From: Candidatus Kerfeldbacteria bacterium
GTDB taxonomy: Bacteria > Patescibacteriota > Patescibacteriia > UBA9570
Length of the DNA stretch: 32,579 nt
Assembly (NCBI GenBank): GCA_016182495.1
Contig: JACPGK010000014.1
Location: forward strand, 1-32,579
Reading direction: 5' to 3'
Part shown: positions 612-6,071 of the stretch, piece by piece
Numbering within the stretch: the stretch's first letter is position 1
Layout of the letters: the number at the start of each line of letters is the position of its first letter
Notes under the pieces: generated by a model
Databases searched by the model: none
What the model was told of the DNA's origin: nothing
What the model saw: the letters and a program-made list of their open reading frames with translations, nothing else
Made by a program: the position numbers and the translations under genes

Positions 612-839
612 ATGTCTACCATTATCAATTCAAACGAAGAAATTTTAACGCTTGCAGAAGTAGCCACCCTACTCAAGATCAGTCAAATCACGGCACGGCG
701 CTGGTGCAAGTCGGGCAAAATTCCAGCAATCAAAATTGGCAATCACTATCGCATTCGGAGACAAGATATAGATAAACTATTTGATAAGTATGCATTCAGA
801 GATACAACAATTTTTGAGCCAAAAACGCACCAGGCTTAG
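612..839 (+). CDS. Excisionase-family / MerR-fold DNA-binding protein
   Basis: A 75-residue protein whose core is a winged helix-turn-helix of the excisionase (HTH_17) type: LTLAEVATLLKISQITARRW, then a short wing with KSGKIPAIKIGNHYRIRRQD. Proteins of this family bind att-site DNA and steer a tyrosine recombinase toward excision, or act as small regulators. The next gene is a tyrosine recombinase whose ATG at 790 lies 50 nt inside this reading frame, so the two are co-transcribed and probably translationally coupled. The tail after about residue 58 is not conserved family sequence. Recognition of the fold is secure; the role as excisionase rests on the neighbour. Confidence 0.85.
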   Translation: MSTIINSNEEILTLAEVATLLKISQITARRWCKSGKIPAIKIGNHYRIRRQDIDKLFDKYAFRDTTIFEPKTHQA

Positions 840-1683
840 CCCTCAGACGGTTAAGGCGTATGAAAGTGACTTAAACCGCTTTTGTGCTTTCCTTCAGGAT
901 AAGTCAATTAGTGAAGTCACTGCTCAGCATATTGAATCATTCCTCAAACACATTCAGGATAGCTCTGTAGTGCGTAAAAATGCCTATGACAAGAGCGCTA
1001 ACACAGCACGTAAGCTTTCTACAACCAGATCATTTTTTAAGTACCTACATCGCAATGGATTTATTGAGCTTGATCCAACACTTAAAGTTGAGCCAATACG
1101 GGTCAGTAACAGGGTATCTGAGTTCCTGTCACCTGAGGAAAAACAACGTCTCCTAGAGGCTATTAAACGCACTGCAACGCCTTATTACATTGAGCGAGAC
1201 ATGGCAATTGTTCAAACCTTTCTCTATACAGGTATACGATTGCGTGAATTGGTTTCATTAAAAGTAACCTGCCTTGATTTTGAAGGTCAGTGCATTAAAG
1301 TCGTCCGTAAAGGTGGCGATGAAGACAAAATTTTATTACCTAATGAAGCAGCAAAATTCTTAAAAGCCTATTTAGAGGTTAGGCCAAAGTCTGATATTGC
1401 TTACGTCTTTGTAAGTAAGCGTAAGCGAGTTACAAAAGATGGTTACGGCATCTCTCCAAGTGAAGTATATTTGATTATACAAAAATATTTAAGAAAAGCT
1501 GGTATTACCAAAGAACATTTGGGTGTGCATAGCTTGCGACATACATTTGCGACCGACTTATTACGTCTTAATGCTAATCTGGTTCAGATCAAAGAGTTGC
1601 TTGGGCATAAGAATATTGCTACCACCCAACGCTATGTTCACGTTGAGGAAAAAGATTTAAGAAAAATTATTAATCAATTATGA
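790..1683 (+). CDS. Tyrosine recombinase / integrase (XerC/D-like)
   Basis: A 297-residue site-specific recombinase counted from the ATG at 790; a TTG at 781 would add three residues. The N-terminal SAM-like core-binding domain covers about residues 5-90 and the catalytic domain about 110-295. All six expected catalytic residues are visible: Arg150 (GIRLREL), Lys174 (VVRKGG), His247 and Arg250 (HSLRHT), His273 (LLGHKN) and the nucleophile Tyr282 (QRYVH). The length is normal for Xer-type enzymes and there is no lesion. It overlaps the excisionase-like gene by 50 nt, and the next gene starts 4 nt after its stop. With no chromosomal Xer context and a mobile setting, it is more likely the island's integrase than the dimer-resolution Xer, but sequence alone does not exclude the latter. 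Confidence 0.92.
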   Translation: MHSEIQQFLSQKRTRLSPQTVKAYESDLNRFCAFLQDKSISEVTAQHIESFLKHIQDSSVVRKNAYDKSANTARKLSTTRSFFKYLHRNGFIELDPTLKVEPIRVSNRVSEFLSPEEKQRLLEAIKRTATPYYIERDMAIVQTFLYTGIRLRELVSLKVTCLDFEGQCIKVVRKGGDEDKILLPNEAAKFLKAYLEVRPKSDIAYVFVSKRKRVTKDGYGISPSEVYLIIQKYLRKAGITKEHLGVHSLRHTFATDLLRLNANLVQIKELLGHKNIATTQRYVHVEEKDLRKIINQL

Positions 1684-1687
1684 TAGT

Positions 1688-2407
1688 ATGAAAAAAATTA
1701 CTTTCAATCAAATATTATTACTAATAATTACGGTGTTAGTGTTTGGAATATTACTAGTGGTAAGTTGGCCTTATACAAAAAAAGCTTATGATCAATACAA
1801 ATATAATAAAGAACAGGAACTAATAAAAGAAGTGGCCAAAGAACAATATAATAAATCTTTAGAGGAAGCTAATAAGTATGAAGAGACTTTAGCACTATAT
1901 AACTCTGTATTAAAAGAGCCAGCGATTAATGGAGTTCTTACTATGAGCGAAACTACAAAGATGATTGTACCAGGGGTAATTGCATCTACACTTGGTTCTG
2001 TCTGGATAGTTGACTGCAGCGAAATCAATAATGTTATGAGTAATAAGGTTGAGTACTATGACTGGTGCCAAGAAAGCTTCACTACGAGAGATCAGTTAGC
2101 AGAAGATGACATGGATTGGTTTCTTAAAGGGTTTGATATTGATGAGGATTGGCTTAATGAGTATCATCATCCAGAATGTTATTTAGATCATAAGCCGGTA
2201 ACAACAGAAAAGATCATTGAGAAAATTAATTCTTTCAAGCCACAATGTGAATCCGCAATTGTAAAAACCAACAGTTGGATCAAATCGTTAGAAAATGAGA
2301 CGGTTACTTATTCTAGCCTTATTACAGCGACTCAGGATGCCATTAAAGACACTGAAAGGAACCTAAGAAATTCTGATGCCTTTATTTTTAATAATAAGGT
2401 TTATTGA
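1688..2407 (+). CDS. Unknown single-pass membrane protein with coiled coil
   Basis: A 239-residue protein that I do not recognise. Residues about 8-27 form a hydrophobic membrane segment followed by WPYTKKAYDQYKYNKEQE, so the body is probably anchored as a type II protein or carries an uncleaved signal. Residues about 35-70 are rich in Glu/Lys and look helical or coiled-coil. The rest is acidic, with scattered Cys (VDCSE, DWCQE, PECYLD, PQCES) that could form disulphides outside the membrane. It starts 4 nt after the tyrosine recombinase stop and ends 9 nt before the zinc-ribbon membrane protein, so the block reads as one operon. It is probably cargo of the island, possibly an exclusion or transfer factor, but nothing in it proves this. 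Confidence 0.6.
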   Translation: MKKITFNQILLLIITVLVFGILLVVSWPYTKKAYDQYKYNKEQELIKEVAKEQYNKSLEEANKYEETLALYNSVLKEPAINGVLTMSETTKMIVPGVIASTLGSVWIVDCSEINNVMSNKVEYYDWCQESFTTRDQLAEDDMDWFLKGFDIDEDWLNEYHHPECYLDHKPVTTEKIIEKINSFKPQCESAIVKTNSWIKSLENETVTYSSLITATQDAIKDTERNLRNSDAFIFNNKVY

Positions 2408-2416
2408 TAAGAAAAT

Positions 2417-3136
2417 ATGAATAAAGATAATGGAATACAACTCCCCCAGTACCACACGTGGTCACGCCTGCACCCACAGTGTAAGCGTTGCGGTACACAA
2501 GAAACCAAACACAGAGGAGGTGGCTTGTGTTACACGTGTTACTATAAAGTCTACCGTGATAAGCATCCTGAACTCATAAAGAAAGCTATGAGACGGTGGT
2601 TAGATAAGCGTAAAGGCAGGTTTACATATGAGGAAGAAAAAGTATCAGAGTCTACGAAAATGGTATTTAGAGCAGTTGATGCATCATATTATATTCACGT
2701 TAATGAAAAAAAATTGTATCCAAGAAAAATTTGGATAGTGAACTTTTTATTATCATTTGTGGTTGCCTACTTATTCATGGTTAGCGCGTTAGATTTCAGT
2801 TACTTCGGATGTTATTTTACTTCTGACATACCTAATCAATGCACTCTATGGCCTGGCTTAACAAATATTGTCATTGCATTAGTAATAAATATTGTTTTGG
2901 CGTTGGTTGTTCCGTATTGGATATTAATGTTGCTAAGTGATTGGGTATATGATCTTGGTAAAAAAACTGAATCAGAGCTTATGAGACAAACTGTAAAAAC
3001 CCTAGAGCAGGATGGGTCTATAGATGCAAAATGTGCAGAAGTTGTTACGAATGGTATTATGAGCATGCATTGGTCACCAAGTGAAAGAATGATGGCCGCT
3101 ATAAATACGAGCAATGATAATAATAAAGATGGATAA
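2417..3136 (+). CDS. Zinc-ribbon protein with two membrane segments, unknown function
   Basis: A 239-residue protein. The N-terminus has a compact zinc ribbon with Cys22, Cys25, Cys38 and Cys41 (CKRCG ... CYTCY) followed by YRDKHPE, a motif resembling small phage and mobile-element zinc fingers. Two hydrophobic segments follow at about 105-127 and 150-172, separated by a short loop with two Cys. The C-terminal 60 residues are soluble and helical. A nucleic-acid-type zinc ribbon on a membrane protein is an unusual combination. The gene overlaps the serine recombinase start by 8 nt (ATG at 3129, stop at 3136), so the recombinase is translationally coupled to it. I cannot name a function. Confidence 0.6.
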   Translation: MNKDNGIQLPQYHTWSRLHPQCKRCGTQETKHRGGGLCYTCYYKVYRDKHPELIKKAMRRWLDKRKGRFTYEEEKVSESTKMVFRAVDASYYIHVNEKKLYPRKIWIVNFLLSFVVAYLFMVSALDFSYFGCYFTSDIPNQCTLWPGLTNIVIALVINIVLALVVPYWILMLLSDWVYDLGKKTESELMRQTVKTLEQDGSIDAKCAEVVTNGIMSMHWSPSERMMAAINTSNDNNKDG

Positions 3137-4637
3137 AGCGGTTTGTTATATTCGTGTCTCAACAAAAGAACAGGCACGACCTGGACGTCTTTCTCTTGGT
3201 ACACAAAAACAGATATGTGAAGACTTAGCTAAACGTTCAGAACTTCAGATAATAAAAGTATTTGAAGATGCTGGAAGGAGCGCTACTAAGATAAATCGTG
3301 CCGCCTTGCAAGAGATGTTAAGTTTTATCAATGACAATCCTGAAGTTAAAACAGTTATTGTCCAAGATACAGACAGATTAGCTCGCAATACTCAAGATCA
3401 CCTAACAATCATGGCACTCTTGAGGAAACAAGGAGTCCAGTTAATGTCAGCCTCACAGCCAGGCATAGATGACACACCGGAAGGCAATCTGCTTGATACT
3501 ATACTAGCTGCTGTAAATCAACTTCAGTCTGATCAGAATGGGCGCAAGGTTAGAAATAACATGAAAAGAAAAGCCCAGGAAGGCTGGTGGCCAACACAAG
3601 CACCGTTGGGCTATTTGAATGTTAAAAACGAGTTTGAAAAGAACATTATCAAGACTGACCCACAAGGTTCCAAGTACATCAAACAAGCGTTTAAATTATT
3701 TAGTACAGGAAATTATTCAGTTCGTGAGCTTGGTGACGTACTTTACCAAAATGGTTTTAGAAACCATCAGAATAGATCAGTAGGCAAAAACGCTATCAAC
3801 TCTATTCTGAAGAATAAATTTTACTTAGGTAAACTGATTTGGAAACAAGAGGAGCATAAAGGTCAACATGAAGCTTTAATTGACGAACAGACGTTTGATA
3901 AGGTTCAACGGATTTTATACTTGCATGGAGGAAAAGATAACCGTCGTCGTAAGCATACTTTTCTACTGCGAGGCTTTATCTATTGTGTCTGTGGGGCAAG
4001 AATGACCGCCGAGCATCACCCTAAAAAGAATAAGTCGTATTATCGTTGCCCGAAAGGCAAGGCCTGTGACGAGCCATTTATTCAAGTGAATGATCTGGAA
4101 GATGAGGCCGCTAATTTATTTAAGAACCTGCATTTTTCTGATAAGTTGCAACAAACATTAGTGGGTAGACTGCAAACCATTTTTGAGAAAAGAAAAGGTG
4201 TTATTGATAAAGAGCGTCAAACGATCATTAACCAAAGAGTAGCGGTTGAACAAAAAAGAAATGTTGCAGAGGATAAGTTATTGAAAGACGTTATTTCAGA
4301 TGAGGATTTTGGTCGTATCCGTAAGACTGTCGTGGATGAACTAGAGGCTTTGAATAAAGAGCTGAAACGTTTAGACGCTGAGCGTAATTTTGAAATTGAC
4401 CCCATACGAGTCGTATTGGAGTTTACGCGGGATATTCACTCGGCTTATATCAAAGCCCCTGAGAGGCTCAAGAGGCGCTATTTAAATCTATTCTGGGATA
4501 GGTTAGTCGTTCAGAATAAAAGTATCGTTTCTGTAGAACCTACAAAGGTGGTTAAGGCATTGTTGGATGCGAACGCTTTGGTAACAAAAGAACCGGCATT
4601 GAAGCCGGTTCTAATAACGGTTCGTCAGCAGGGGTAG
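3129..4637 (+). CDS. Large serine recombinase (resolvase/invertase superfamily integrase)
   Basis: A 502-residue recombinase from the ATG at 3129; an ATG at 3114 adds only five residues. The resolvase domain has the nucleophile Ser11 in YIRVSTKEQ and the downstream Arg motif DTDRLARN. The Recombinase domain begins near GWWPTQAPLGYLNV, a zinc ribbon follows (CVCGARMTAEHH then YYRCPKGKAC), and then a long coiled coil rich in Lys/Glu. This is the architecture of phiC31/TP901-type integrases. The 3' end is odd: the reading frame passes through the tRNA-Trp terminator hairpin at 4586-4611 and uses a stop (4635-4637) inside the tRNA on the other strand. The C-terminal 20 or so residues may therefore come from the attachment site. 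It appears intact. Confidence 0.93.
   Translation: MDKAVCYIRVSTKEQARPGRLSLGTQKQICEDLAKRSELQIIKVFEDAGRSATKINRAALQEMLSFINDNPEVKTVIVQDTDRLARNTQDHLTIMALLRKQGVQLMSASQPGIDDTPEGNLLDTILAAVNQLQSDQNGRKVRNNMKRKAQEGWWPTQAPLGYLNVKNEFEKNIIKTDPQGSKYIKQAFKLFSTGNYSVRELGDVLYQNGFRNHQNRSVGKNAINSILKNKFYLGKLIWKQEEHKGQHEALIDEQTFDKVQRILYLHGGKDNRRRKHTFLLRGFIYCVCGARMTAEHHPKKNKSYYRCPKGKACDEPFIQVNDLEDEAANLFKNLHFSDKLQQTLVGRLQTIFEKRKGVIDKERQTIINQRVAVEQKRNVAEDKLLKDVISDEDFGRIRKTVVDELEALNKELKRLDAERNFEIDPIRVVLEFTRDIHSAYIKAPERLKRRYLNLFWDRLVVQNKSIVSVEPTKVVKALLDANALVTKEPALKPVLITVRQQG
4586..4611 (-). terminator. Intrinsic terminator of tRNA-Trp
   Basis: On the - strand, GAACCGGC-TTCAAT-GCCGGTTC forms a perfect 8-bp stem with a 6-nt loop and is followed by TTTTGTT. 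It lies about 18 nt after the tRNA-Trp 3' end and fits a Rho-independent terminator for that transcript. On the + strand the same bases are codons of the serine recombinase C-terminus. Confidence 0.75.
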
Positions 4638-4701
4638 CAGGACTCGAACCCGCGACGCGCGGTTTTGGAGACCGCCGCTCTACCAGCTGAGCTATACCCC
4701 T
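4629..4701 (-). tRNA. tRNA-Trp (CCA anticodon)
   Basis: The reverse strand folds into a full cloverleaf: acceptor AGGGGTA/TACCCCT, D arm AGCTCAGCTGGTAGAGC, anticodon stem GCGGT/ACCGC around loop CTCCAAA with anticodon CCA, T arm with GGTTCGAGTCC, and discriminator G. The 3' CCA is not encoded (the next bases are CTG). The gene is the attachment site of the island on its 3' side: the serine recombinase overlaps its last 9 bases on the opposite strand. Confidence 0.96.
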
Positions 4702-4707
4702 ATTCTA

Positions 4708-4737
4708 CTACGCTCTAACTATGTTAGAGCTTCGTAG
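4708..4737. repeat. Palindromic repeat in tRNA-Trp leader
   Basis: GCTCTAAC-TAT-GTTAGAGC is a perfect 8-bp stem with a 3-nt loop at 4712-4730, extended by CTAC/GTAG across a 3-nt bulge. It sits 7 nt upstream of the tRNA-Trp 5' end. The flanks (TACGC ... GCTTCGTAG) resemble those of the palindrome at 4787-4808, so the two may belong to one dispersed repeat family. Confidence 0.6.
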
Positions 4738-4767
4738 GAATTTATCACAGGATAAAGACCAACGAAC

Positions 4768-4822
4768 CTCTACCAACTGTTTGCCGCGCCGTAGCTTTAG
4801 CGAAGGCGGGAGCTATACCCCT
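4768..4822 (-). pseudogene. tRNA-Trp 5' fragment split by a palindromic insertion
   Basis: On the - strand, GGGGTATAGCTC (identical to the 5' end of the intact tRNA-Trp) is followed by 31 nt of unrelated palindromic sequence and then AGTTGGTAGAG, which matches the rest of the D arm (AGCTGGTAGAG) with one change. Similarity ends after this. It is a partial second copy of the tRNA, 121 bp from the first, and looks like an att scar or a decayed duplicate. Confidence 0.65.
4779..4809. repeat. 31-bp palindromic insertion inside tRNA fragment
   Basis: The stem CGCCGTAGC/GCGAAGGCG (two mismatches, loop TTTA, 4787-4808) sits between the two halves of the tRNA-Trp 5' fragment. Related GC-rich palindromes occur at 17284-17300 (CGCGTTGCTTTAGCGCG), beside tRNA-Pro at 26101-26131 and, more loosely, at 4708-4737. 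Confidence 0.6.
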
Positions 4823-4857
4823 ATAAATAAAAGCCAAAGTATCATAGCAGTTTTAAG

Positions 4858-6071
4858 TCATTTGGCAAGAAACGCTGCAGCATTGTTTCGAGCTAAATCA
4901 CGGGCAATCTTTTTTGGTAATTGATCTAGTAATTTTTGAATCGGTTCAAGTGCTCCAATGGCATCATCACTTAAACTATCGGCTGTTGTTGTATTAACGA
5001 TCGTACTCCCCCAGTATTTACTATCCGAACTAATCATTATGCGATCGCGATACTGGGTAATAAAATCAAGCCAGTTCGATCGTAACTGCCCCGTGCTATT
5101 TAATGGGTATGATTTTGTTGCTTCATTGGGCTTACGCATTTTGATGGTAAGATATAAATTAGGATGATTAGCCATCATAGTGCTATAGGTAGTGGTTGTA
5201 TTCGGCAGCTAAATCAGCTAGCCATAGCATTAACTCACTATCTGCTGGAAAAGTAATGTACGGGTGATAATTCACCAAAACCAATATAATCGCCTGATTG
5301 GGCGGCTTCGGTTGCTTGTTGTTGAAACGTAGCTGTCCAGGTAGTGGCATCAGTTGCAATGGCTTGCGTATCCGCCAACAAACCAGATAGTTCAGCTTCG
5401 TTATCTAGGCCATTAGGATAAATATCTGCTAGCGCCAAGTTGGCCGTGCCACCCAAAGCATGCAAAATAGGGTTTAATGTGTTGCCTCCATATACTGTTC
5501 GAAATTGAATATTGTGTTCACCAATAAAGTTAAGCAGCCGGCTTTCAGAATAGCCATTAGCAGCATCTTTTAGCGCATTTGGCACCGGCATTAAATTCAT
5601 CATCGAGATATTCCAATCTGTTAGCACAGTTTGTAAATCTGTTAAGGCTGGTTCAGTGGTTTTAATATTCACATGTGCCAGCATATCAATCAAACGCGGT
5701 TGCGTACCGGTGAGGCTGCTTGGTTTGCTTGTAAATTGTATGGTCGAGTAGGCGCTGGCTCGACCAGTAACGTTGACGGTTTTAACTTGGGCCGTATAAA
5801 TGGTATGCGGTGCTAACCGATGTATCATGGCACTGGTATCAGTGGTATTGGCGGTGTAAAGTATATTTCCGTGGCTGGTAATTTTAATTTTATAATATTT
5901 TACTGTTGTCGTTGTAGCTTTATCCCAAGTTAATTTAACTGATCGAGTAGTGCGTTGACTGGCCGAGAGATGATATGGCGGAGCAAGTTTGCTATAGGCT
6001 GGCAGGCTGCTAGCCAATAACCAAACACAGCAGCTAACTAGTACGATACTGGCACGATAATATGCTGTCAT
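4858..6071 (-). pseudogene. Secreted FnIII + amidohydrolase-like protein, decayed
   Basis: Two - strand reading frames form one broken gene. The first (6071 down to 5238) has a signal peptide (about residues 1-27), a fibronectin type III domain (about 30-115) and the start of a TIM-barrel metal-dependent hydrolase resembling the amidohydrolase family (ending GFGELSP). After a frameshift near 5260 the barrel continues in another frame (HPYITFPADSELMLWLADLA, then AAEYN) to a stop. About 60 expected residues are then missing, and the second frame (5178 down to 4858) resumes with HPNLYLTIKM, the SSDSKYWG strand and the C-terminal helix. A frameshift plus a deletion means it is unlikely to be active. 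The family is judged from motif style without a search. Confidence 0.75.

Follow-up and report, generated by a model that had tools for sequence, protein, structure and literature searches.

A hairpin-broken tRNA-Trp fragment in a Kerfeldbacteria genome and its likeness to GIY-YIG elements beside tRNA genes

The tRNA-Trp locus and its broken 5′ copy

The window analyzed here, meaning the whole stretch of 32,579 nucleotides of contig JACPGK010000014.1 from a Candidatus Kerfeldbacteria bacterium, carries on its minus strand, in reading order, a promoter-like site, a broken copy of the 5′ end of tRNA-Trp, a spacer, an intact tRNA-Trp gene, and a terminator-like hairpin. The intact tRNA-Trp(cca) gene occupies positions 4628–4701 (minus strand; found by ARAGORN, 64.9 bits with the Rfam tRNA model) and is followed on its 3′ side by the terminator-like hairpin (4589–4612, minus strand), which has nine pairs, six of them GC, and a T-rich tail. 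Upstream of the gene, a copy of tRNA-Trp nucleotides 1–12 (AGGGGTATAGCT; 4811–4822, minus strand, 12/12 identity) is parted from a copy of nucleotides 13–24 (CAGTTGGTAGAG; 4768–4779, minus strand, 11/12 identity with one change) by a GC-rich, imperfect palindrome of 31 nt read directly from the sequence (4780–4810, minus strand), so placed between tRNA nucleotides 12 and 13. The preliminary description of this DNA had given the same three parts, and its description of them is essentially correct to the base. A spacer of 66 bp, in which no open reading frame (ORF) and no GIY-YIG remnant was recognized, extends from the fragment to the intact tRNA (4702–4767, minus strand).

The similarity between fragment and gene extends slightly beyond the tRNA itself. 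An exact direct repeat of 15 nt, GAGCTATACCCCTAT, lies at 4689–4703 and 4810–4824, with two of its nucleotides preceding the tRNA; when the whole window was shuffled, an exact match of this 15-mer was absent from all 20 Markov shuffles. In the same genome, copies matching at least 11 of the first 12 bases of a tRNA were sought up to 500 bp upstream of each of 48 distinct tRNA loci, and such copies were found only for Trp, Phe, and one Leu, the reversed-sequence control yielding none.

The promoter-like site (TTGCCA-16-TATGAT; 4841–4868, minus strand) was located by a consensus scan with 10/12 matches and a TG before the second hexamer. Taken alone it is weak, because one such site was found against 1.0 expected in shuffles, but it is likely to be the native tRNA-Trp promoter. 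The fragment then lies in what is presumably the leader of the tRNA-Trp transcription unit, away from the recombinase genes of the window. Those genes lie within 781–4637, where a tyrosine integrase (781–1683) and a serine integrase (3114–4637) flank two ORFs of 239 aa that belong to no known family; the stop codon of the serine integrase falls inside the 3′ end of tRNA-Trp. On the other side, two adjoining minus-strand ORFs of 106 and 277 aa (4858–6071), the longer with an fn3 domain, may be pieces of one broken gene. A group I intron in the tRNA was considered and rejected: tRNA-Trp is uninterrupted according to ARAGORN, and the inserts in the fragment and the spacer measure 31 and 66 nt.

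As a fold, the 31-nt palindrome is weak (z −0.4, equaled by 62 of 200 shuffles), and the notion that it is a thermodynamic oddity was dropped. A much stronger fold is provided by a second hairpin within the spacer between fragment and tRNA, an inverted repeat at 4705–4737 with stems of 8 bp and 4 bp separated by a 3×3 internal loop (z −6.1; none of 200 shuffles equally stable); this hairpin is absent from the preliminary description. The exact core of the palindrome is present once in its own genome, so that the multiple near-identical copies per genome characteristic of REP and MITE repeats are not found there; the other matches to the core carry two or three mismatches in 16, and all matches together number 18, versus 7 in the reversed control. 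Among related genomes the motif is common.

Excision of the 31-mer restores a continuous tRNA sequence, and we regard the palindrome as an insertion, possibly a mobile one. Of the earlier claim that it is a mobile or insertable unit, the insertable half is borne out here and at tens of other loci, while the words "direct evidence" of mobility were too strong: the core is single-copy, and no empty counterpart of this site was found among the genomes examined, none of which is of the same genus. Relatives carrying the same 55 bp with flanks devoid of tRNA similarity, named in the preliminary description as the contrary case, were not encountered.

Hairpin-broken tRNA 5′ copies in other genomes

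To assess recurrence of the arrangement, 286 class genomes and the GTDB collection were scanned for TAGCTYCCGCC-loop-GGCGGRCA, a pattern in which no more than five bases are generic to tRNAs. This pattern was matched in 27 of the 286 class genomes, and at least 137 distinct matches were obtained overall. Among the matches listed, at least 67 have a tRNA on the same strand starting no more than 320 bp downstream; the 12 bases ending in TAGCT equal the first 12 of the adjacent tRNA at no fewer than 40 loci, and identity to the adjacent tRNA's own 5′ end reaches at least 11/12 at 49 or more. Seven of the 12 compared bases are free of the pattern and vary among tRNAs, and the tRNAs with varying copy bases are Thr, Arg, Val, Ile, Ala, Lys, Met, Pro, Phe, and Asn. 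The matches listed come from Patescibacteria lineages, Marinimicrobia, Elusimicrobia, Bacteroidota, and Kiritimatiellota.

Past the hairpin, the copy often continues with the D-loop sequence of its own tRNA, and removal of the hairpin restores the tRNA at the identical D-arm point in tens of loci that involve different tRNAs. By eye, most fragments stop near the point where the D arm or the anticodon arm closes. The hairpin of the window matches those in the tRNA copies of other loci in both type and position. Two units stand in tandem at L093, L141, L189, and L195, and at some loci the copies have drifted from the tRNA (L112). Forms without an ORF outnumber ORF-bearing forms in the pattern scan.

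For tRNA-Trp itself, an upstream 5′ copy is present in 6 of 14 loci of the class and in none of the control. A GIY-YIG-like ORF lies between the 5′ copy and the tRNA at two of these loci (L324 and L334), and ORF-less units are found in the window, in G003, a genome of the same family, and at L342. The tRNA-Trp of G001 has no 5′ copy, and its leader shows, by eye, no clear similarity to that of the window.

Three parts of tRNA copies harbor hairpins: the D arm, the anticodon loop (in tRNA-Glu copies), and the T loop. The tRNA-Glu anticodon-loop hairpins lie at TTTT^CATCC in L244, L247, and L275, and a T-loop hairpin is seen in L260. A double-hairpin form is dispersed, also away from tRNAs, in 56 of 192 genomes, with none in the reversed control. 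Of 41 copies, in which tRNA positions are partly repeated, 28 are preceded by T and 17 are followed by CA, flanks that would fit an insertion preference of the hairpins, though many copies share tRNA positions.

Several loci show further arrangements. In the same genome as the window, a tRNA-Leu 5′ fragment (about nucleotides 1–26) that contains no hairpin lies 433 bp upstream of tRNA-Leu(cag) and is followed by a 90-aa ORF that, by eye, is not GIY-YIG (L314). Directly 3′ of a tRNA-Phe at a contig end in G012, a 66-bp tandem repeat (L006, 2766–2915) has units that start with a tRNA-like 5′ end and a hairpin (CGGGGCGTAGCTTCCTGCTTCGCTAAAGC...). In G003, two nearly full-length pseudo-tRNA-Thr sequences stand in tandem 3′ of the intact gene (L321, 915–1170), both of them interrupted at T12^C13 by a double hairpin, and the second with an additional T-arm hairpin. 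A tRNA-Glu 3′ half whose anticodon loop carries a double hairpin lies downstream of the intact tRNA-Glu in G017 (L363, 1410–1500), which indicates that the hairpins are not limited to 5′ fragments. At L087, L131, L104, L157, L173, L174, and L202, the right arm consists of CCARCTTCGCTA and part of the acceptor complement; this arm repeats the tRNA 5′ end in inverted orientation with TGA changed to TTC, and the unit can therefore form a three-way junction.

GIY-YIG reading frames between copy and tRNA

A fuller form of the arrangement is present at the tRNA-Phe of the same genome, where the 5′ copy lies 374 bp upstream and is followed, before the tRNA, by a GC-rich D-loop hairpin and a 78-aa ORF. 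This ORF encodes a GIY-YIG nuclease (Pfam PF01541, 6.1e-17) that also matches the PHROG family "homing endonuclease with GIY-YIG motif" (3e-4); the NCBIfam group I intron endonuclease was matched below its cut-off only. Full elements thus carry the catalytic domain of a known homing endonuclease class (PF01541).

Small GIY-YIG ORFs were collected from 28 relatives, and 66 loci were read. A same-strand tRNA lies just downstream of 22 of the 66 ORFs, its start ranging from 22 bp before the stop codon to 152 bp after it (median 5.5 bp), and some of the ORFs terminate on bases of the tRNA itself. Upstream of the ORF, a script found 10 nt or more of the tRNA 5′ part copied exactly in 16 of the 22 cases; further copies are plain by eye at L242 and L261. 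The copies stop roughly where the D arm or the anticodon arm ends, and they bear one to three hairpins. At L136 (3965–4500), two GIY-YIG stretches stand in tandem before tRNA-Tyr, each after a hairpin-bearing tRNA 5′ copy. In a second search, a profile built from the GIY-YIG proteins was run on loci that had been fetched only by the hairpin pattern; nine GIY-YIG stretches were found, six of which adjoin a tRNA with a 12/12 upstream copy.

A tree of 66 GIY-YIG proteins, built on few columns and with many open forks, falls into two halves in which the tRNA-linked proteins are distributed very unevenly (23 of 36 versus 0 of 30, p = 7e-9). The count of 23 linked ORFs exceeds the scripted 22 because L242 and L261 were labeled by hand, the ORF of L261 running into the tRNA. 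Within this tRNA-linked clade, the protein from the tRNA-Phe locus clusters (support 100/97) with proteins located at tRNA-Glu and tRNA-Met, which indicates that targets change. Lineages each homing to a specific tRNA are not supported, the targets being scattered across the tree; this scatter makes the pattern weaker than classical homing would predict.

An occupied and an empty version of one site can be compared in G017 and G205, which belong to one genus. The tRNA-Glu of G205 is empty, and that of G017 is occupied. The ~96 bp before the intact tRNA-Glu of G205 align with the sequence before the G017 fragment with a score of 115 (shuffled maximum, 32), versus only 22 for the alignment of the G205 leader with the sequence before the intact G017 tRNA-Glu. 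The element therefore went in downstream of the native leader and upstream of the tRNA seen there today. At another tRNA-Glu (L358), an ORF-bearing and an ORF-less unit stand in tandem with identical fragment and hairpin, which indicates that an ORF-less unit can originate next to a full one. Duplication of the leader was rejected as a rule: ~30–50 bp are duplicated at L131, L210, and the tRNA-Phe locus of the genome studied here, but not at the tRNA-Glu of G017.

Interpretation and relation to known systems

Based on these data, the feature in the window is probably a relic or mini-form, lacking an ORF, of a homing-type GIY-YIG element whose insertion sites are tRNA genes. It has the look of a scar left by a selfish element that spares a working tRNA, because the arrangement recurs at many tRNA genes, often with a GIY-YIG gene in between. 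With the other members it shares the same-strand upstream copy of a tRNA 5′ end and the GC-rich hairpin inside that copy. The spacer of the window holds no GIY-YIG ORF between copy and tRNA, and the feature is therefore classed as a relic or mini-form rather than a full element.

In full elements, the promoter and leader native to the tRNA come first, followed by ~25 or ~43 nt of its 5′ end with one or more GC-rich hairpins in them, an ORF for a GIY-YIG nuclease of ~80–100 aa, and finally an intact copy of the same tRNA. This anatomy and its recurrence are seen directly, as are a single empty site, a coherent group of nucleases, and ORF-less units next to ORF-bearing ones; the mechanism is an inference. 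In it, the D or anticodon arm of a tRNA allele that is still unoccupied would be cut by the nuclease, and the element would be installed by repair from an occupied allele. The old 5′ part of the tRNA would be left behind dead, with a rebuilt tRNA downstream of it, and the hairpins would prevent this remnant from serving as a tRNA. At the tRNA-Trp locus of the window, an ORF would once have been present and is now gone, with fragment, hairpin, and spacer persisting in the leader. Given the greater frequency of ORF-less forms in the pattern scan, some loci may carry the nuclease merely as a passenger.

Alternatively, the palindrome itself could be the actor. According to this account, a REP- or MITE-like hairpin targets T^CA in loops that resemble those of tRNAs, this locus never had a nuclease gene, and the hit on tRNA-Trp was rescued by a short, replication-linked duplication that restored the tRNA. 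The lack of an ORF at most pattern loci speaks for it, as do the dispersal of the double-hairpin form, the T and CA flanks, and the presence of hairpins in three different parts of tRNA copies. We nevertheless consider it unlikely, since the core is single-copy in its own genome, the flank counts pool repeated tRNA positions with independent sites, and GIY-YIG ORFs are linked to the same fragments far beyond chance. A tandem duplication of the entire tRNA-Trp gene, with decay of the upstream copy and a chance insertion of the palindrome, is improbable to a further degree: full-length pseudo-tRNAs with hairpins are known, such as the tandem tRNA-Thr copies of G003, but fragment ends, judged by eye, mostly lie near the arm closures instead of falling at random, and the hairpin sits at one fixed point in tens of loci.

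Slightly less credit still is given to a functional leader RNA that controls processing or expression of the tRNA. The position of the fragment between promoter-like site and tRNA would suit such a role, and at some loci (e.g., L087, L131, and L202) the right arm is complementary to the tRNA 5′ end. That complementarity is not general, with a mean of 9.7 matches of 19 versus 9.4 for mismatched tRNAs, and a conserved leader with a tRNA-complementary right arm was rejected as confined to few loci; moreover, copies drift from their tRNA at some loci, such as L112, and the arrangement is scattered, being absent from the G001 tRNA-Trp. The least probable origin, an attachment-site scar of the recombinase-bearing island beside tRNA-Trp, was rejected as the main explanation since, although the serine integrase ORF (PHROG integrase, 4.8e-90) ends inside the tRNA 3′ end at 4637, the copy and the island lie on opposite sides of the tRNA (5′ and 3′, respectively), no second copy of the tRNA 3′ end is present in the assembly (96% complete; the contig ends inside the island), and many tRNAs that lack recombinases have such fragments too. 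The two events proposed in the preliminary description, a partial tRNA duplication next to an island and a later insertion, survive as a partial duplication with a palindrome inside the copy, whereas their tie to the island is not supported. The wider context, a recurring element that has a GIY-YIG gene when complete, lay outside what that description could draw on.

The reading as a relic or mini-form of a GIY-YIG element places the feature in a wider class that is, as far as the openly licensed papers searched can tell, undescribed: none was found in which a tRNA 5′ fragment broken by a hairpin accompanies a rebuilt tRNA. The locus in the window would be of minor interest alone; it gains interest from the class. 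We hold as an evenly balanced proposition that the class represents an intron-less GIY-YIG family residing in tRNA genes of Patescibacteria and other bacteria, which supplies a fresh 5′ part to the tRNA, rides the tRNA promoter, hops between tRNAs, and sheds ORF-less hairpin mini-elements such as that of the window. Selfish DNA usually avoids essential single-copy genes or resides in them by means of a self-splicing intron. An element that breaks a tRNA and then rebuilds it from its own sequence would be a different solution and, if true, would explain the small GIY-YIG genes beside tRNAs in these bacteria. Hairpin-broken tRNA fragments are easily searched footprints of such elements, and defined pairs of GIY-YIG protein and target are available for cutting assays.

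Among known systems, intronless homing has been reviewed (PMC3984707), and in T-even phages SegB, a free-standing homing endonuclease of the GIY-YIG class, cleaves inside tRNA-containing sequence and promotes recombination at that place (PMC13096335). SegB resembles the elements considered here as a small GIY-YIG gene beside tRNA genes and outside any intron; it differs in belonging to phage genomes with tRNA clusters, and the parts of that account consulted describe neither a hairpin-broken 5′ fragment nor a rebuilt tRNA (PMC13096335). Inserts in the rRNA genes of CPR bacteria include GIY-YIG ORFs in inserts that match no intron, as well as short (<200 bp) ORF-less ones, and lie mostly at the tips or bases of stem-loops (PMC11270868). 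They are alike in the bacterial radiation, in GIY-YIG ORFs outside introns, and in short ORF-less forms; they differ in having an rRNA host gene, and the portions consulted describe no gene-restoring duplication, while the text does not mention tRNA, palindromes, or hairpins (PMC11270868).

The hairpins themselves, short, GC-rich, imperfect, and dispersed in the genomes of relatives, recall a further class of repeats. REP- and MITE-type repeats of bacteria are short GC-rich imperfect hairpins as well; unlike them, many of the copies described here lie inside tRNA fragments, and the core in the window has no second exact copy in its genome. Finally, integrative elements with attachment sites in tRNA genes replace part of the tRNA and leave a displaced fragment, and in this respect they are alike. 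Such elements use integrases and usually restore the 3′ end of the tRNA, whereas here it is the 5′ part that is rebuilt and a nuclease gene of ~80–100 aa that is carried.
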